Source of the DNA: Loigolactobacillus coryniformis subsp. coryniformis KCTC 3167 = DSM 20001
GTDB taxonomy: Bacteria; Bacillota; Bacilli; Lactobacillales; Lactobacillaceae
Assembly: GCF_002706425.1 (NCBI RefSeq)
Contig: NZ_CP017713.1
Coordinates: 744,001 to 808,000, forward strand
Reading direction: 5' to 3'
Length of the DNA stretch: 64,000 nucleotides
Below are positions 3,136-62,398 of the stretch, piece after piece. Position 1 is the stretch's first letter, and the number at the start of each line of letters is the position of its first letter. The position numbers were made by a program, and so were the translations under genes. A model generated the notes under the pieces. That model had not been told where the DNA came from. It saw only the letters and a list, made by a program, of their open reading frames with translations, and ran no database searches.

Positions 3136-4432
3136 TGCTGTCGACCATCAAAAATGCTTGGCATGTGAAGGACATTCGAAATCGGATGTTCTTTACGTTA
3201 GGTATTTTGTTAATTTTCCGTTTAGGGACATTTATTACTGTTCCCGGTGTTGATGCAAAGGCATTAACATCGATTGCTTCTTCCGGATTAGTTAGCATGC
3301 TGAATATGTTCGGTGGTGGTGGATTAACCAATTATTCCATTTTTGCGATGGGGGTTTCTCCTTACATCACTGCACAAATTGTCATCCAACTTTTGCAGAT
3401 GGATATTGTGCCCAAATTTGTTGAGTGGAGCAAACAAGGGGAAGTTGGTCGACGTAAGTTAAATCAAATTACACGTTATCTGACGATTGTTCTTGCATTT
3501 TTGCAATCAATCGGTATTACTGCTGGCTTTAACGCTTTAAGCGGGCTAGGTTTGGTCAAGAATCCAAATTGGCAAACCTTTGTTATGATCGGTATTATCC
3601 TAACTGGTGGCACTATGTTGGTTACTTGGATGGGTGAACAGATCACGGATAAAGGCTTAGGTAATGGGATCTCAATGATCATCTTTGCCGGGATTATTGC
3701 GCGCTTACCAAGTGGGATTTATCAAGTTTACCAGCAATGGTTTGAGACAAATCCAAGTACCACACAATTCTGGTTGTACATTTTGTACGCTGTCTTGTTG
3801 GTGATCGCAATTTTCCTTGTCGTTGTCCTTGTTACTTACGTCCAACAAGCGGAACGGCGTATCCCGATTCGTTATACACGGCGGGTAACAGATGCTGGCG
3901 ATAATAGCTACCTACCATTAAAAGTCAACGTTGCGGGGGTTATTCCCGTTATCTTTGCAAGTTCATTTATTGCAACACCGGGTACGATTTTGCAGTATTT
4001 TAGTAACACACACTCTGAAGATCAGTGGTTCAAGATCATGACCGATATATTTAGTATGACAACCATTCCTGGTTCAATCTTATATACAGTTTTGATCATT
4101 GTCTTCACTTTCTTCTATGCGTTTGTTCAGGTCAATCCGGAAAAGGTTGCCGAAAATTTGCAGAAGCAAGGTAGTTATATTCCAAGTGTTTGGCCAGGAA
4201 AAACAACTCAAAAATATATTTCCGGCACGTTGATGCGTTTATCAACTGTTGGTTCTGTCTTCTTGGGTTTGGTAGCTTTGCTGCCGATCTTGGCGCAGAA
4301 TATTTGGAGTTTACCTGAATCAATCGGACTAGGTGGTACTAGTTTATTGATCGTGGTCGGGGTTGCTTTAGAAGCAGCTCGTCAGATCGAAGGATTGATG
4401 ATGAAACGACATTACGTTGGTTTTATCCGCTA

Positions 4433-4433
<1 letters not shown>
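3135..4433 (+). CDS. secY: Preprotein translocase channel subunit SecY
   Basis: 432-aa SecY, the channel of the general secretion system, with about ten predicted membrane segments. Conserved stretches visible are the plug/TM2 region ending MGVSPYITAQIVIQLLQ (near residues 70-90), the cytosolic loop QQAERRIPIRYTRR (near 235-250) used for SecA and ribosome contact, and the C-terminal EGLMMKRHYVGFIR. Its start overlaps the rplO stop by one base. The stop codon is the first arm of a stable hairpin separating it from adk. Confidence 0.98.
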
Positions 4434-5158
<725 letters not shown>

Positions 5159-8123: not shown

Positions 8124-8241
8124 GATCACTTCTAAAATGTTTGACTAGAGTGTTATGATGTTGGTTAGTTGTTTTTCCAAGTCTAGCTCGATGGTTGGCG
8201 AATCGTGTATTCGATCACATTTTAGAATGTGATTTTTTTTT
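8124..8241 (+). terminator. Terminator after rplQ with a competing upstream segment
   Basis: ATCACATT (8214-8221), loop TTAG, AATGTGAT (8226-8233) and a run of T form an intrinsic terminator. GATCACTTCTAAAATG (8124-8139) is complementary to 8218-8233 apart from one bulged T, so it could pair with the loop and 3' arm and prevent terminator folding. This gives an attenuator-like layout between rplQ and ecfA1. Confidence 0.6.
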
Positions 8242-12023: not shown

Positions 12024-12100
12024 TATAGCTGGTACTGTTTACCCCACGATAAGCCCCGGAAACTTACTGGTGTTTAAACAGACACAGAAAAATGGAGGAA
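12024..12100 (+). promoter_or_regulatory. Probable L13 leader of rplM
   Basis: The stretch between the promoter and the rplM ribosome site is in the place of the L13 autoregulatory leader known in Bacillota. It contains self-complementary pieces such as CTGTTTA (12036-12042) against TAAACAG (12074-12080). Assignment is by position and partial pairing, not by a covariance search. Confidence 0.45.
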
Positions 12101-14717: not shown

Positions 14718-15125
14718 GTAAAAGGGGCTTTGGCTGCAGCGTTAAGAAAAACATCACTTCCTCTCGTAAGAAAAATACTGATTCTAGTTAATATTAGAAC
14801 TTGTTACCCTGTTCCGTCACTAACGGACATAGGAATTTCACCTCTCCTGCTTACGTGGGAGCCTCGCGGAAGTATCATTATCTACTTAAATTGTACGATC
14901 ACTAGTTAAAGATCATAATTGAGAAGTGGGTGGCGCTCGCGCTTGGGTCATGGCGTCCACCAATCAACAGTTCAAGAAAAGTAAGAAAGTTAGGGTAGCA
15001 ATATTCAATTGTCAAAGGGCACGCAGCTCATGTTATCTGCTCACTATATACATACAAATAAAAATAAAAGATGAAACCAAAAAAGCAAATTAATCAAAAA
15101 AAGATTAACTTGCTTCTTCGTCGTT
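14718..15125. other. 408-nt non-coding stretch between xis and the regulators
   Basis: No convincing gene. It contains several short self-complementary pieces (TCCGT/ACGGA near 14813-14827, GGTGG...CCACC near 14929-14962 with GC-rich GGCGCTCGCGC inside) and, at its right end, a terminator at 15083-15115. It may carry the xis-int promoter, the inner end of the element's regulation region, or a small RNA; none can be shown. Confidence 0.4.
15083..15115 (-). terminator. Terminator after the Orf8-like gene
   Basis: AAGCAAATTAATC (15083-15095) against GATTAACTTGCTT (15103-15115), with the minus strand continuing into TTTTTTGG. It would end the transcript of the two regulators 11 nt after the last stop. 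Confidence 0.7.
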
Positions 15126-30227: not shown

Positions 30228-32681
30228 TTACTCACCTCCAGTTATCTGCGCTGGTGGGCGAGTATCGAAAGCCTTGTATAAGTGTTCAAAGATGTAATCA
30301 AAGTGCAGAACGCCGACATGACCCCAAATATCTTGGAATAAGCATTCACCATTATCTAGTGAACGTAAGCGGTGTTGATTGCTTTCATCTTCGGCGTCTA
30401 GGCCAAAGAAAGTGAGCGTGTTTTTGATTTCATTGATATCGGTCGAGCGAAAGGCAAATTTCATACCGATATTATTTTTCATCTTTTCGTCTAAGAGATC
30501 ATTGGCATTTTGGGTGACCAGATAAACGCCGGCGTTCATTGAGCGACCTTCACGGATCAATTTCATGGATAAGGCTTTACCTTGCGCCACGTTCAGAAAC
30601 GCCCAGGCTTCATCGAGATCCACAATTTTAAATTGCGAACGATCGGCATGGATAAAGTCGATGGCAAAAGTCGAGATGATCATCAACATGGCTACGGATA
30701 ACGTTTCCGCGGTGATGTATTCTTCTTGGGTTTTGTCGGCATCCGGTAAGACCAAATCGGCAATTTGAATGATATTGATTTTGCGGTCCAAGGCGATCGA
30801 ACGGCGAGTGGAGCCATTTGAAAAGAGTAAGGCAGCAAAATCATAGTCGGTGAACGATTCAATATGATCAGCGATATTGTTGGCAATCGGCGTCCCTTCG
30901 CGGCGCAGTTCAGTGATCACTTTCAATAATCCTGGTTGTGGATCAAGGGTGACGTTGCGAATTGCTTTACGTAAAGTAGGAAATCGTTCGGCATCACGAC
31001 TAGAGATCCCGGTCAAAAAGGTTAAAGTATCGACTGCCAAACTTTCAGAATCTTTTGGGTTGCTAAGAATGATGTAAGGATCAAGTAAACCACGATTAGC
31101 TTCTTCACTAGTTAAGTTAACGATATTGATATCGTCTTGCATGAAATCTAAATTTTTCGCCCAATCAGTTCGTTCCGATTTTGGATCAAGAATTAAAGCT
31201 TGCGCGCCATAGAGGACGGCGTAATAGACAAGTAAGTTATTAGAAAATGATTTACCACCACCTAGTGAACCTAAAAACGCGGCGGAAAGGGCATTCGTTA
31301 CGGTTCCTTTCAAACCTTGTGCGGCTAAGTCAGGTTTGATGAAAACATTACGACCGGTATCCACGTTGTAGCCCACATAAATGCCTTCACGTTCACCTAA
31401 AGCTTGGGTAGCACCGAAGCCTAATGAGGCAATGAAATCACTAGTCACATATTGAATGTAGTCGTTCATGTAGCGCTTTGATGCGGGCATAAACTCACTG
31501 TGTAAGCCCAGCATATCGCCGAAAGGGCGAACTAATTTGATGTTCAACGAATCATAGAAATCAAGCACTTGATCGGCACGCTTTTTCATTTCATCGTAGC
31601 TTTTGCCACTGACGCGAATAACATAGGAAATTTTGTACATCGCGTCTTTAGTTTGATCAAGTTCAGCTTCTAGGTCGTCAACGGAATCAAGGGCATCGGC
31701 GACACCGCGAGTGGTTTCATTATTAGATTCATAGGCGTGATTATCTAAATCTTTCAGCTCTTTCTTTTTGTTACGGACCTTAGTTAACGCCTTTTTGTTA
31801 GTCACAATTTCAACATTTAGTGAGGTATCAATGGGAAAGTCGAATTGTTGTTGCTGGAAATAGAAAACCTCACTACCAGGAAAATCTAATTCACCAACAA
31901 TATCGGACAAGGCCATATAGGTGACATAGGATTCAGTAAAGCCGTGGGTAATGATCAAGTAACGTTGCTTTTGTTCGATCAATGAGCGGGTTGGTTTGAT
32001 CAAGTCATATTTTTTGATCACTGTATCTTGATCATCTTTTTGTCGTGGCAGGTGGTATTGGTAGTCTTCATAATCTTGCCCTGACATACCGTAGAGATGT
32101 TCTAACAAGTAGCCAAAATCATCTTTGATCAGTGGTCGAATTTTAAAGCGACGACTGACTTTATCGGCCAGAAAACGGGCGACTTTACGAAATCGATCAA
32201 CTTCACTGTTGTTCATCACCATGAAGTCACCGGTATATTTTTCGTTGAATTCGTGGAGAAAGTCCTGAATGCCGAGCATAATATCATGCCAAACGCCTTT
32301 GGCGGATAGCTCGCGATCATTTAACAACAGTTTGAAACCAATAAAAAAACGATAATCAACTTGATTATCGCCAATATTGTCGATCAATGCGGCGGTTTGA
32401 CCGTCAATATGCGTATCGGCAATACTTTTTAAATTACCTTTGACCGTGGCTTTGGAACGGCGCATCGTGTCTTTGATACTGGATTCGGTGGCAAGCTGCA
32501 AGAGATGCAGTTTACCATCACGGTTTTGTGAGATCAACTGACGGAAATTTTCGTGGACTTCCGCTTTTTGATCAGGCGAGAGAAAGGAATAGTTGTAGGG
32601 GACAAGTTCGTAATAGGCGAAGCATTCGCCATCACGATTAAATACTAAATTGTCTTCGATATATTTTATGGGAAACTTCAC
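30228..32681 (-). CDS. VirB4-like conjugation ATPase (Tn916 Orf16-like)
   Basis: 817 aa. The C-terminal ATPase domain has Walker A GSLGGGKS at residues 471-478 and Walker B in FKIVDLDEAWAFLN; the conserved ALILDPKSERTDW follows Walker A. The N-terminal domain is the TraC/VirB4 type. It powers the mating channel. It overlaps tcpE by 4 nt and abuts the VirB6-like gene. Confidence 0.93.
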   Translation of the reverse strand: MKFPIKYIEDNLVFNRDGECFAYYELVPYNYSFLSPDQKAEVHENFRQLISQNRDGKLHLLQLATESSIKDTMRRSKATVKGNLKSIADTHIDGQTAALIDNIGDNQVDYRFFIGFKLLLNDRELSAKGVWHDIMLGIQDFLHEFNEKYTGDFMVMNNSEVDRFRKVARFLADKVSRRFKIRPLIKDDFGYLLEHLYGMSGQDYEDYQYHLPRQKDDQDTVIKKYDLIKPTRSLIEQKQRYLIITHGFTESYVTYMALSDIVGELDFPGSEVFYFQQQQFDFPIDTSLNVEIVTNKKALTKVRNKKKELKDLDNHAYESNNETTRGVADALDSVDDLEAELDQTKDAMYKISYVIRVSGKSYDEMKKRADQVLDFYDSLNIKLVRPFGDMLGLHSEFMPASKRYMNDYIQYVTSDFIASLGFGATQALGEREGIYVGYNVDTGRNVFIKPDLAAQGLKGTVTNALSAAFLGSLGGGKSFSNNLLVYYAVLYGAQALILDPKSERTDWAKNLDFMQDDINIVNLTSEEANRGLLDPYIILSNPKDSESLAVDTLTFLTGISSRDAERFPTLRKAIRNVTLDPQPGLLKVITELRREGTPIANNIADHIESFTDYDFAALLFSNGSTRRSIALDRKINIIQIADLVLPDADKTQEEYITAETLSVAMLMIISTFAIDFIHADRSQFKIVDLDEAWAFLNVAQGKALSMKLIREGRSMNAGVYLVTQNANDLLDEKMKNNIGMKFAFRSTDINEIKNTLTFFGLDAEDESNQHRLRSLDNGECLFQDIWGHVGVLHFDYIFEHLYKAFDTRPPAQITGGE

Positions 32682-33058
32682 TGGTCGAACCTCCTTACGT
32701 GAGTGATGTGGTCAAGGACATGGGCTTTAACAGGTTTGACTGACCGTCCGGCAAACGTGACTTTCTGGGCGGTAAAATAAGTGATCACCGAGCGCAGAAA
32801 ACCTAGTGGCCGTTTGTTATCAAAAGTCTTTTGACTCATGAACCAAGTAATGGCCGCCGGAATACCGAGATATTTCAGGAATGCGCCATCAATGAAACTA
32901 AGTGGTGGTACATCACCAAGCAACATGACCAAAAATAAGGCGACGATGAACCAAGTCATTTGCGTGAATGTGACGGGGAACGGTAGATTAACATCGTTGA
33001 TCGCGTAAAGCACTTTTTCCACGGACCAAATGCTGGTGTAACTACGAATCTTTTTCAT
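32678..33058 (-). CDS. tcpE: Conjugation membrane protein TcpE (Tn916 Orf17-like)
   Basis: 126 aa with two membrane segments (MTWFIVALFLVMLLGDVPPL and FLKYLGIPAAITWFMSQ), then a basic tail. The ATG at 33058 follows GGAGG; the frame is open 80 codons further up but that stretch runs over the ardA region in another frame. TcpE proteins bridge channel parts in Tn916 and pCW3-like systems. Confidence 0.85.
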   Translation of the reverse strand: MKKIRSYTSIWSVEKVLYAINDVNLPFPVTFTQMTWFIVALFLVMLLGDVPPLSFIDGAFLKYLGIPAAITWFMSQKTFDNKRPLGFLRSVITYFTAQKVTFAGRSVKPVKAHVLDHITHVRRFDQ

Positions 33059-33125
33059 AAGTGACCTCCTTTCTTTGGGGTAAAGAGGACTGATCCATTT
33101 GCTAGACCAGCCCCCGAGCAGAAAC

Positions 33126-33629
33126 TTAATTTGCGTATTCATAAATAGCGCTGTTAGTAACCAAGTAATTACCTTCAATTTCCATATCGCGACCCAGTGC
33201 TTCAAAGTCGAGGTAGGCAATGACTTGATCTGGCAGGTCACCGAAAACGGCACCAGATTCCACAGCATCTTGTGCCAGCTCGGCCATATCTGAAACACCT
33301 TTATAGATAATGATATCCTCAGCGTTTTCAGCTAGTTCTTCAATATCACGGAACCATTCGCCAATCAAGGCACTAACGTCAGCGCCAAAATCATATTCTT
33401 CAAGCCGTTCTAAAGCGGCATACTTACGATTGATCTCGTCTATTGAATCAAAGCGATCAATTTCAAATGGTGCTTCGTAATCATGGATCGCGTACTCTTC
33501 ACTGTCATTTTTCAATTCCAGTTGTTCGGCAATAGCGTCAGGGTATAACGGCGGTGTGAACCATTTGCCAGTGGGTTTGCCTTGATTGTAATAACCTAAG
33601 TTGACGATAAAAACGCGTACCGTTTCCAT
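33126..33629 (-). CDS. ardA: Antirestriction protein ArdA (Tn916 Orf18-like)
   Basis: 167-aa very acidic protein that mimics DNA and blocks type I restriction enzymes during entry into a new host. The family pattern VFIVNLGYYNQGKPTGKWF at the start and a high density of Asp/Glu throughout (EEYAIHDYEAPFEIDRFDS) support it. It lies between tcpD and tcpE as in Tn916-like elements. GAGGGAG precedes the ATG. Confidence 0.93.
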   Translation of the reverse strand: METVRVFIVNLGYYNQGKPTGKWFTPPLYPDAIAEQLELKNDSEEYAIHDYEAPFEIDRFDSIDEINRKYAALERLEEYDFGADVSALIGEWFRDIEELAENAEDIIIYKGVSDMAELAQDAVESGAVFGDLPDQVIAYLDFEALGRDMEIEGNYLVTNSAIYEYAN

Positions 33630-33654
33630 TTAGCTCCCTCTTTTCTTGCAGTAA

Positions 33655-33876
33655 TTAGGCACCAACAACACGATTGAATAAGTTCAATAGCACATCTTTG
33701 ACGCCGGCGGTATTAAATACCAGCCCCACGGCGATCAATGCAATGATCAGAAAGCCGATCAGTTTAGAAAATTCACGTTTAAAGCCTAAGAAAACACCGA
33801 TCACTGCAATTGCCATTAGCACTAAAGACTGGGCGTTGCTTGTAAACCAGTTGAAGAGATTTTGTCCAAAGTTCAT
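33655..33876 (-). CDS. tcpD: Small membrane protein TcpD
   Basis: 73 aa with two hydrophobic helices (LVLMAIAVIGVFLGF and LIGFLIIALIAVGLVF) separated by a short basic loop, as in TcpD of clostridial and Tn916-type transfer regions. GAAAGGAA precedes the ATG. Small size makes the name less certain than for neighbours. Confidence 0.7.
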   Translation of the reverse strand: MNFGQNLFNWFTSNAQSLVLMAIAVIGVFLGFKREFSKLIGFLIIALIAVGLVFNTAGVKDVLLNLFNRVVGA

Positions 33877-33899
33877 TTATTATCAATTCCTTTCTAAAT

Positions 33900-34622
33900 T
33901 TACCAAAGTGAGGTTTGCGACGAGTGATGTTGCTTGATCCGAGCTAAGGCCTTTTGATAATAATTTGGATCAAGTTCGTAACCAATGTAGTGCCGGTCAG
34001 TATTAATACAAGCAATAGCCGTTGTGGCGGAACCCATGCAATTATCTAAAACAACTTGTCCGGGTAACGTATAAGTTTTGATCAGGTATTCAAACAATGC
34101 GACTGGCTTCTGGGTTGGGTGCCAAATATTTTTATCAGCTTTAAACCGTAGAATATCATTCGGATAGTTCTGGTACTCTTGAACATATTGTTCTGGCGCT
34201 GCCCATGGGTGTACTTGGTTACCAAAGCCTTTAGTTTGCGCATTAGTGATGGTTTTGTTCATGGGCATCAGGTCCTGTGGGTAATAGAACATGGCATTAT
34301 CAGAATTAGCCACCGGCGCTTTTGAAAATACAAGTACTTCTTCATACCGTGACATTGGCCGATGGTGGGCGTTAATAAAATTAGTGACATTACTTTTGAC
34401 CCAGACCCACTTGTAACGGAATAGTTCAGGCTGGGAGTTGTAGAGCTGAAAACTAAAACGTTGATTACTGGTTAGAACAATTGCACTGCGAGGTTTGATC
34501 AAACGTAAATATTGTTGCCAAAGTTGTTCAAACGGAATGATCGAATCCCATGTGTTAGGAGTTGTGCCGTAAGGAAGATCACAAAGAATCAAGTCAACGG
34601 ATTGATCCGGTAGTTTCTTCAT
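33900..34622 (-). CDS. Orphan DNA methyltransferase (N6-adenine/N4-cytosine type)
   Basis: 240 aa from the ATG at 34622. The catalytic motif is DLPYGTTPNTWD (a D-L-P-Y form of DPPY) and the AdoMet motif is VVLDNCMGSATTAIA near the C-terminus, the beta-class order. HPTQKPVALFEYLIKTY is also typical. No restriction gene is nearby, so it may protect the element on entry. In-frame codons upstream (34623-34649) read Ile-Tyr-Asn-Glu-Asp-Cys-Leu-Leu-Gly, a normal methyltransferase N-terminus, yet no standard start codon precedes them; the N-terminus may be damaged. Confidence 0.82.
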   Translation of the reverse strand: MKKLPDQSVDLILCDLPYGTTPNTWDSIIPFEQLWQQYLRLIKPRSAIVLTSNQRFSFQLYNSQPELFRYKWVWVKSNVTNFINAHHRPMSRYEEVLVFSKAPVANSDNAMFYYPQDLMPMNKTITNAQTKGFGNQVHPWAAPEQYVQEYQNYPNDILRFKADKNIWHPTQKPVALFEYLIKTYTLPGQVVLDNCMGSATTAIACINTDRHYIGYELDPNYYQKALARIKQHHSSQTSLW

Positions 34623-60689: not shown

Positions 60690-60726
60690 AAAAAAGGCGC
60701 GGATTTGTTTTAAACAAATCTGCGCC
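60690..60726 (-). terminator. Leader terminator of the cysteine operon
   Basis: GGCGCGGATTTG (60696-60707) with CAAATCTGCGCC (60715-60726), extendable by three T-A pairs into the loop, followed on the minus strand by six T. It lies 38 nt before cysK and 40 nt after the leader peptide stop, so cysK transcription must read through it. Confidence 0.9.
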
Positions 60727-60765
60727 TTTCACAATTCAACTGATTAAGATAAGCTGCTAACCGAA

Positions 60766-60852
60766 TTATTTTTGGGTAGCACAATCAGTGTATCGCGAAA
60801 GACGCGGTACACAACAACATACGCTAGCATTGACAAACGTTAAGTTGAACAT
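60766..60852 (-). CDS. Cysteine-rich leader peptide of the cys operon (28 codons)
   Basis: ATG at 60852 is eight bases after a perfect AAGGAGG (60861-60867). The peptide is MFNLTFVNASVCCCVPRLSR followed by YTDCATQK: three consecutive TGT codons (12-14, 60811-60819) plus a fourth Cys at codon 24, then TAA. Bases around the start (GCACAATCAATG) can pair with CACTGATTGTGC within codons 21-25; GCGTCTTT after the Cys run (60798-60805) can pair with AAAGGCGC (60722-60729), the 5' arm of the terminator. This is the layout of an amino-acid attenuator responding to charged tRNA-Cys. No similar peptide is known to me by name. Confidence 0.8.
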   Translation of the reverse strand: MFNLTFVNASVCCCVPRLSRYTDCATQK

Positions 60853-60879
60853 TGATTGTGCCTCCTTAATTCAAGAATG

Positions 60880-60927
60880 GGTTGAAAAATCTGCTTTTTC
60901 AACCAGGTTTACGCTAATTAGCGTAAA
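60880..60927. repeat. Two hairpins in the cys leader
   Basis: GGTTGAAAAA (60880-60889) pairs with TTTTTCAACC (60895-60904). TTTACGCTAATTAGCGTAAA (60908-60927) is a perfect 20-bp palindrome, either an RNA hairpin or a protein-binding site between promoter and leader peptide. Confidence 0.7.
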
Positions 60928-60996
60928 ATTAACCTTGCAATATTTCCCAGACAAAATTTTAAGTTGCGCTCATTCGTCCGGATTGATTACTCTTTC

Positions 60997-61025
60997 AGAA
61001 TACGGGCTGACCGAATGATTGTCAA
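60997..61025 (-). promoter_or_regulatory. Promoter of the cysteine operon
   Basis: Minus-strand TTGACA (61020-61025), 17 nt, TATTCT (60997-61002). Transcription would start near 60990 and make a leader of about 340 nt. Confidence 0.75.
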
Positions 61026-61034
61026 GTGAAAAAT

Positions 61035-61910
61035 TTATTTTGTTAAAAATTGGCCGCCACGTAAATACTGACCAGTGGCAAACAATAAGTCGCTTAAAAT
61101 AATGCCATAACGGCGCTCGCGTTGGCTATGCGCCGTTTGTTGCAACGCCAAAAAAGTGCCGTTGACCGCATATTTGATTGCGGTAGGCAACCCTTCACCA
61201 TGCTGTAAAAAGCCCGTTAGTAGGGCAGTTAACACATCGCCACTGCCATAAAAGTGACCGGGTAAGCGTGGGTAACCGGAGAATTGCAACCGGCCATGAG
61301 TCAACCAAATACAACCAATTTGTTGCTGCTGAACAACACTGGTGATCACCGCATGACCGTGCGCCGATAATTTTTGTTCCAGCGCCTTTAGCAATTGATA
61401 CTGTTCATTTTGGGTTGGCGTTGTGCCAACGGTGATACCAGTTAGTAGCTGAGCTTCGGTTAGATTCGGTGTGATCACTGTGGCGTAGGGCAATAGTTTG
61501 GCTAGGTGGTAGGGGTAATCGGCTGGTAGATCAGGATAAAGTGCGTTTTGGTCGGCCATTACAGGATCAAAAATAATCGTCGGTAGCGACTGGCGTGCGA
61601 CCAACTGTTGTATGATCGCGACTAAGTCGTTAGTGCCCAAATAGCCTAATAAAAGTCCAGAAAAAGTTAGCTTTTGTTGCTGCCAGTGATGAAAGGTTGC
61701 TAAAAGCCATGGCGCGATTTTTGCGGCGGCCGGTGGGTTAAAGCCTTCAGTTTGAGTCGAAAAAAGGTTAGTCGGTAAGGCCGCTAGTGGTAGATCAAAC
61801 GCACTTAATATGGGCAGCGCCACTTGTAACGATAGGCTGCCAATGGCGGAGAGATCTTGTGCCACTAGCAACGGGGCCACCGGTAAACTATTTTTATTCT
61901 GCCGCATCAT
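61035..61910 (-). CDS. Pyridoxal kinase-like protein
   Basis: 291 aa, ribokinase-like fold of the PdxK/PdxY group: N-terminal VAQDLSAIGSLSLQVALPIL, TIIFDPVMADQNALYPDLP, TPNLTEAQLLTG and the catalytic HFYGSGDVLTALLTGFL with the base Asp. It phosphorylates vitamin B6 forms. It is coupled (4-nt overlap) to an ECF S component, which gives uptake followed by trapping. Confidence 0.85.
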   Translation of the reverse strand: MMRQNKNSLPVAPLLVAQDLSAIGSLSLQVALPILSAFDLPLAALPTNLFSTQTEGFNPPAAAKIAPWLLATFHHWQQQKLTFSGLLLGYLGTNDLVAIIQQLVARQSLPTIIFDPVMADQNALYPDLPADYPYHLAKLLPYATVITPNLTEAQLLTGITVGTTPTQNEQYQLLKALEQKLSAHGHAVITSVVQQQQIGCIWLTHGRLQFSGYPRLPGHFYGSGDVLTALLTGFLQHGEGLPTAIKYAVNGTFLALQQTAHSQRERRYGIILSDLLFATGQYLRGGQFLTK

Positions 61911-62398
61911 AATTTCAGTGGTTGGCGCAATTTGATCACCAGTGGTAAGGCGACTACAGCGCCGGCAATGACTTGTACAGCGTTGGTTGGAATGCCAACT
62001 AATCCTGGTGTTAGTGAGTACAATAATGTATCAGTGACAAAGTAGCCAGCAATCACGATCAAACCGCCAACTAAAAGCGCGAATAATTGGACCTTGCGCA
62101 CTGCTTGGTAGCCGATCCACCCAACAATAAAGCCTTCTAGGCCATGAACCACTAATGAAAAGACCATGTATTGTGAGTAACCGGAAATCAGATCCAGTAA
62201 AAAGCCACTTAAACCGCCCACAAGTAAGCCAGTTCGGCGACCATAAAGTAGTGCCGCAATAAAGATCCCAGCGTCACAAAGATTGATATTCCCATGTGTC
62301 ATCGGCACCGGAATAATAAAAATACGCGCGATCACAACATTTAATGCGATCAGTAGCGCCGGCAATACCAAGCGCTTAGCTAATTGATTTGTTTGCAT
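61907..62398 (-). CDS. ECF transporter substrate-binding subunit, probably for vitamin B6
   Basis: 163-aa membrane protein with six hydrophobic segments, an S component (LVLPALLIALNVVIARIFII, then HGNINLCDAGIFIAALLYGR and GGLSGFLLDLISGYSQYMVF). The A-x-x-x-A helix motif that contacts EcfT can be placed in the first segment. Its partner gene for pyridoxal kinase suggests pyridoxine or pyridoxal as substrate (PdxU type). It has no ATPase of its own and would use EcfA1A2T from 8345-10834. Confidence 0.8.
   Translation of the reverse strand: MQTNQLAKRLVLPALLIALNVVIARIFIIPVPMTHGNINLCDAGIFIAALLYGRRTGLLVGGLSGFLLDLISGYSQYMVFSLVVHGLEGFIVGWIGYQAVRKVQLFALLVGGLIVIAGYFVTDTLLYSLTPGLVGIPTNAVQVIAGAVVALPLVIKLRQPLKL

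Follow-up and report, generated by a model that had tools for sequence, protein, structure and literature searches.

What governs transcription of the cysK-ctl-cysE operon of Loigolactobacillus coryniformis, and does the short frame with consecutive Cys codons upstream of it take part in that control? We addressed these questions in a 64,000-nt stretch of DNA from this organism (the window). All coordinates of leader parts are positions in the window, and the leader and the operon both lie on its minus strand. An earlier note on the same DNA had described the leader as a candidate ribosome-mediated attenuator. That proposal is now supported by conservation, spacing and covariation, from which we infer leader translation and antitermination. 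We estimate a probability of roughly 0.93 that a ribosome-mediated transcription attenuator sensing the charging of tRNA-Cys, by translation of the leader, stalling and a consequent RNA switch, controls cysK-ctl-cysE. Leader-peptide attenuation is a classic class of mechanism. The anatomy of the leader, its conservation, its spacing and the covariation of three helices were computed in this analysis.

The gene order after the leader is cysK, ctl, cysE, each gene being assigned by family scan. The first regulated gene, cysK (60652-59744), encodes a PLP-dependent protein of the cysteine synthase type that scored 322 bits against a cut-off of 351 for the cysK equivalog; MccA-like is the label that we give it. 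It is followed by ctl (59740-58586), for a Cys/Met metabolism PLP enzyme of the cystathionine lyase/synthase group, and cysE (58550-58017), for a serine O-acetyltransferase. Two frames lie 5' of the promoter on the same strand: by eye, the one at 61035-61910 resembles a pyridoxal-kinase-type protein, and the one at 61907-62398 a small membrane protein akin to a transporter substrate subunit. Further away in the window, a long frame resembling a VirB4-type ATPase and its neighbours (30228-34622) hint, again by eye, at an integrative or conjugative element. Rfam families above threshold elsewhere in the window are an L13 leader (12031-12084), a pemK RNA (14827-14881) and an L17 downstream element (8147-8218).

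The window leader contains a promoter, a Shine-Dalgarno (SD) sequence, a short frame and an intrinsic terminator before the first gene, as a leader-peptide attenuator should, and the parts named in the earlier note (the promoter, an SD-led frame of 28 codons with three TGT codons, and a T-tailed terminator before cysK) were all confirmed. The sigma-A-type promoter, TTGACA-17-TATTCT (61025-60997), matches 10 of 12 consensus positions, and aligned loci of three other Loigolactobacillus (L001-L003) likewise have this promoter. The SD sequence AAGGAGG (60867-60861) lies 8 nt 5' of the ATG at 60852, which opens the 28-codon leader peptide frame, MFNLTFVNASVCCCVPRLSRYTDCATQK (60852-60766), with homologues in relatives. 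The putative control codons, TGT TGT TGT, specify Cys 12-14 (60819-60811), and a fourth Cys is codon 24. Hairpin A (strands 1:2), GTGTACCGCGTCTTTCGCGATACAC (60812-60788), has its 5' end in the third Cys codon, a predicted stability of -10.7 kcal/mol and pairs that covary. Within the frame, strand 2, GCGTCTTTC (60805-60797), provides the 5' half of the antiterminator; strand 3, GAAAGGCGC (60730-60722), is common to antiterminator and terminator. The terminator, which was missed by a simple terminator scan and detected by folding, consists of a stem of -21.3 kcal/mol (60730-60692) and a T run extending to 60690, and ends about 40 nt 5' of the cysK start codon. Folding of the 313-nt leader gave z = -7.06, with 0 of 100 shuffles equally good. 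Between the promoter and the leader frame, the window has about 90 additional bases with two hairpins (60870-60960); these bases are absent from Loigolactobacillus jiayinensis and binensis (L001, L002).

We propose that these parts would work as follows. With ample cysteine the ribosome would pass through the Cys codons, after which hairpin A would hold strand 2, strand 3 would pair with strand 4 and transcription would end before cysK. A shortage of charged tRNA-Cys would arrest the ribosome once the first Cys codon occupies the A site; the ribosome body would then mask the 5' arm of hairpin A, and the leading edge would lie about at the start of strand 2. Since strand 2 would thus be left free, it could pair with strand 3 once the latter is made, and the polymerase would continue into cysK-ctl-cysE.

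The distribution of the leader was determined from the genes that it precedes. A CysK search of 301 Lactobacillaceae genomes at E <= 1e-80 returned 82 matches in 81 genomes, representing 15 of 38 genera, and every one of the 82 has an upstream short frame with 2 or 3 consecutive Cys codons. By an automatic rule that a purine match as small as 3 nt satisfies, 80 of the 82 leaders have a start codon whose ribosome site is weak or better; in G028 and G062 (O. kitaharae type) the CCC frame is present and the ribosome site is not clear. The Cys-run frame was likewise seen at 36 of 36 named Lactobacillales loci with upstream DNA, a count from which L031, with 88 nt upstream only, was left out; the genera concerned include Loigolactobacillus, Lentilactobacillus, Ligilactobacillus, Paucilactobacillus, Limosilactobacillus, Oenococcus and Tetragenococcus. 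Elsewhere in the order there were 62 matches, all examined: 46 reached E <= 1e-100, and the other 16 fell between 1e-86 and 1e-80. A Cys-run leader precedes 43 of the 46 close matches (42 by the automatic rule, and G525 by eye) and none of the 16 divergent paralogues; close matches without it are L159, L162 and L164, from one genus outside the family. In E. faecalis the leader frame carries a hypothetical-protein annotation, WP_002355203.1. No comparable leader was seen in nine relatives from outside the order (L035-L040, L042, L045, L046), and the CC-containing frames in three of these nine were judged to be chance. Homologous leaders, in the family and beyond it, have thus kept the frame and its Cys run. 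The earlier note had regarded the Cys leader as the unusual solution of one lactobacillus; instead it occurs across the sampled order, and before other sulfur genes as well.

It had also held the Cys content of the frame to be above chance, and this proved correct. The window has 99 frames of 10-60 codons that follow an SD sequence, of which only 2 contain CCC, and among 689 such start sites in L001-L034 there are 31 with CCC, every one of them the start of a cysK leader. The second CCC frame of the window, near 31830, was rejected: it has 10 codons and runs antisense inside the long frame at 30228-32681 that is VirB4-like by eye. Among 81 family leaders the run comprises 3 Cys in 52 and 2 in 29. 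Codons within these runs are TGT (162) and TGC (52), and the use of both is what would be expected if the amino acid itself is conserved.

We reasoned about the RNA from two alignments. Alignment A1 comprises 26 of 32 leaders, six near-duplicates being omitted. In A1 hairpin A is paired in 89.6% of cells, with 11 both-sided changes (2.9 in shuffled alignments), the antiterminator, formed by the post-Cys codons and the 5' arm of the terminator, in 91.7%, with 17 (4.1 shuffled), and the terminator in 94.2%, with 32 (10.4 shuffled); the helix structures derive from the very sequences tested, and kinship of the rows inflates these both-sided counts. For each of the three helices, none of 500 shuffles reached the observed proportion of cells paired, number of both-sided cells or covariation score. 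Other measures discriminated unevenly: pairs that change on both sides were at least as numerous in 17, 102 and 9 of 500 shuffles for hairpin A, antiterminator and terminator respectively, and pair types in 49, 67 and 378. When the partner was shifted by 1-3 columns, at most 55% of cells were paired. A second group of leaders has different letters in hairpin A; in alignment A2 (21 distinct 42-nt segments from 29 group-2 leaders) this hairpin is paired in 91.0% of cells, with 6 both-sided cells against 1.6 in shuffles (0 of 500 as high), its pair count being reached by 120 and its pair types by 436 of 500 shuffles. In four leaders (G289, G123, G235, G003), A/U/A replaces G/C/G at a single position of strands 2, 3 and 4, a swap that preserves both of the mutually exclusive helices. 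The terminator, the antiterminator and the competing hairpin therefore all covary. This includes the pairing, already suspected, of the segment just after the Cys run with the 5' arm of the terminator: in the window GCGTCTTTC and GAAAGGCGC, with neighbouring bases, pair at -17.9 kcal/mol.

The position of strand 2 relative to the Cys codons was analyzed in a larger set of 96 leaders, made up of 81 of the 82 family matches (G028 left out) and 15 other loci, some from the same species. After removal of 2 duplicates, 94 distinct leaders were used for the position, duplex and folding tests; in the position test, leaders that we labelled, as a guess, Leuconostoc-like were anchored on their first CC run. 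In 87 of the 94 leaders the terminator foot finds its best partner in a segment that begins +6 to +20 nt from the first Cys codon, where about 8.6% would be expected for this interval; in 74 the segment begins at +12 to +17 nt. Judged by toeprint distances, this segment starts where a ribosome whose A site is occupied by the first Cys codon has its leading edge. The cognate duplex of strands 2 and 3 averaged -13.00 kcal/mol, compared with -9.74 kcal/mol for permuted arms (none of 2000 permutations reached so low a value), a difference to which lineage composition may contribute. A segment of equal length 5' of the Cys run gave -4.07 kcal/mol with strand 3 and was worse than strand 2 in 91 of 94 leaders. 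In 61 of the 94 leaders strand 2 outperformed 95% of shuffled versions of itself; in the other 33 it did not. In other families the partner of strand 3 lies at about +22 or +28 where the Cys cluster is longer. In enterococci the pairing of strands 2 and 3 was weak or not found, and at one locus no terminator was detected.

A further pairing, between the start region of the frame and codons 21-25, had been suggested for the window, and its complementarity is indeed there: GCACAATCA (60861-60853) matches TGATTGTGC (60787-60779). Sequestration of the SD sequence as a general feature was rejected, since across all 96 leaders it beats the shuffled mean in 66, and its strength is clear only for the Loigolactobacillus rows shown. 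Because of this restriction to Loigolactobacillus we place it outside the general mechanism.

We modelled the stalled state by masking the RNA up to the predicted edge of the ribosome and folding the remainder at equilibrium. Before strand 4 is made, the mean predicted share of strand 3 paired with strand 2 rises from 0.36 to 0.83 when the ribosome is present; stalling raises the antiterminator share by at least 0.2 in 60 of 94 leaders and lowers it by that amount in none. At this stage, 39 of the 94 already have an antiterminator share of at least 0.5 with no ribosome. The window leader has a share of 0.999 both with and without the ribosome, the antiterminator beating hairpin A, which argues against a simple equilibrium switch. 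Where the antiterminator is favored in this way without a ribosome, termination by default would need kinetic trapping or a moving ribosome. For the full window leader, the model gives 0.95 terminator and 0.00 antiterminator without a ribosome, and 0.47 and 0.52 with it. In full-length RNA generally, the antiterminator gains at least 0.2 in only 19 of 94 leaders and becomes dominant in only 12, with the opposite shift in none; in one close relative (G118) it reaches 0.76 even without a ribosome. Equilibrium folding thus predicts the switch only in part, and these mixed results suggest that the order of events during transcription matters.

Three other explanations of the leader were weighed against attenuation. 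The peptide itself might act, either as a small thiol- or metal-binding protein or as an arrest peptide that senses something other than tRNA charging. Its composition would suit such a role, since Cys accounts for 325 of 2149 residues of the leader peptides (15.1%, a count that takes in one wrongly assigned 12-residue peptide for G062), as would the Arg that follows the Cys run in many leaders. However, the first-group Arg codons lie in strand 2 and hairpin A, so that RNA pairing explains the Arg, and peptides from different families vary in length and share little besides the Cys run. We consider action of the peptide very unlikely. Somewhat less likely still is that the terminator palindrome serves as the operator of a DNA-binding regulator, the frame being incidental. 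According to PMC6004538, which cites Liu et al. 2012, a near-identical palindrome in lactobacilli has been put forward as a possible regulatory motif, but an operator does not account for a T run on only one side of the palindrome, for covariation of strand 3 with the post-Cys coding segment as well as with strand 4, for spacing tied to the Cys codons or for a Cys run retained at every family locus.

The explanation to which we give least credence is that a T-box or a metabolite riboswitch governs the terminator. T-boxes are common in Lactobacillales, and L. paracasei FAM18149 has one Cys T-box, located before a transporter (PMC6004538). Nevertheless, a search with covariance models found neither a T-box (RF00230) nor any other Rfam family at threshold at the window leader, nor at the leaders of 34 leader-bearing relatives (12 of 12, 8 of 13 and 14 of 14 loci in three scans, the remaining 5 of the 13 being Bacillus-type relatives without a Cys leader). 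The best sub-threshold match at the window leader scored 23.9 bits, where the gathering score is 369, and we take such matches as chance. Those to the icaR 3' UTR (whose alignment was viewed), rliH, STnc40, the L20 leader and EF3314_EF3315, all far below their gathering scores, were judged in the same way. The sole T-box in the 12-locus scan (L006, 6691-6925) lies beyond cysK (4001-4903). At a locus without a Cys leader, in Rummeliibacillus (L038), a Bacillaceae-1 RNA was seen about 440 nt 5' of cysK.

The same module also precedes other genes. A pattern combining the Cys run with strand 2 occurs at 27 places in 24 of the 301 genomes, and the reversed pattern at none. By coordinates, 18 of the 27 are cysK leaders. 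Of the nine others, five precede ctl; at one locus (L184) ctl is apparently broken and a permease comes next, and at another (L185, in G043) an IS-like frame, recognized by eye, lies between the Cys leader and ctl. The module precedes a permease at L176 and L177, that of L176 having as its best NCBIfam match a cystine ABC permease (221.6 bits, under the cut-off of 300), and an OppA-like binding protein (SBP_bac_5) at L198. Family scans covered L176, L177, L198 and L181, identifying the last as a Cys/Met PLP enzyme, and the remaining ctl loci were identified by eye through resemblance to L181. One place (L174) was judged to be chance, there being no start codon with a ribosome site. A second pattern occurred at 21 places in 18 of 201 genomes, several of them plainly due to chance, with 1 match for the reversed control; one place examined (L258) is a ctl leader with a Cys-Phe-Cys run. 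Four genomes (G043, G251, G264, G132) have both a cysK copy and a ctl copy of the module. We consider it probable that there is an order-wide cysteine attenuation regulon in Lactobacillales, in which a portable leader module with its antiterminator strand in the post-Cys codons serves transsulfuration (cysK-ctl-cysE, or ctl alone) and cystine or peptide uptake, replacing the T-boxes and CymR of other Bacillota.

Published expression data exist for the orthologous operon of another species. In L. paracasei FAM18149, log2 values for cysE2, ctl1 and cysK2 were -2.9, -3.2 and -3.1 in methionine-deficient versus cysteine-deficient medium, so that cysK2-ctl1-cysE2 is 7 to 9 times higher when cysteine is deficient; its authors observed high read coverage of the 5' UTR, noted a Rho-independent terminator, proposed premature termination, did not find a T-box and described the mechanism as "yet to be discovered" (PMC6004538). 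On plasmid pFAM18149.25 we found that this operon, whose CysK is 70.9% identical to that of the window, is preceded by a leader frame with a GGAGG site and ending MSQSMFNAINCCCRTTRFWRCSAC, and the terminator motif printed in PMC6004538 is identical in its letters to L144 3383-3422 on the same plasmid. Leader-peptide attenuation can explain the published cysteine response, and it offers a concrete answer to the question that the study posed. It would also suggest that cysteine genes are to a large part controlled through leader peptides, as a main route, in an order for which one would expect T-boxes, and the module gives a means of predicting further cysteine genes; the sulfur amino-acid metabolism of such bacteria is relevant to cheese flavour (PMC6004538).

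Several known systems resemble the one proposed here. One is uORFC-8-2, before cysS in Rhodobacterales (PMC8632094), a short frame that likewise has Cys codons in tandem, an intrinsic terminator and predicted ribosome-mediated attenuation, but it belongs to Alphaproteobacteria and controls cysteinyl-tRNA synthetase. Runs of Cys codons also precede cysteine genes in Actinobacteria; there, no conserved terminator was reported and Rho was suggested (PMC1262725), in contrast to the intrinsic terminator and covarying antiterminator of the leaders described here, and in mycobacteria the attenuation is reported to be translational (Canestrari et al. 2020, as cited in PMC13236596). Within Bacillota, leader-peptide attenuation has been described for other amino acids, in the His attenuators of the Bacillus cereus group and others (PMC9413887, PMC2965389), which were reported in 17 genomes (PMC9413887), and in the Leu attenuator of S. 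aureus ilv (PMC5794164). Among the papers listed in searches of open-licence literature, a scope outside which most subscription journals fall, none was seen to report a Cys leader peptide for Lactobacillales or other Bacillota; the mechanism class is known, and its Cys specificity is apparently unreported for Bacillota. The logic of strands 1:2, 2:3 and 3:4 in the Cys leader is that of the E. coli trp attenuator. Unlike in trp, strands 1 and 2 of the Cys leader lie in the frame directly past the control codons, and the stop codon is farther on.
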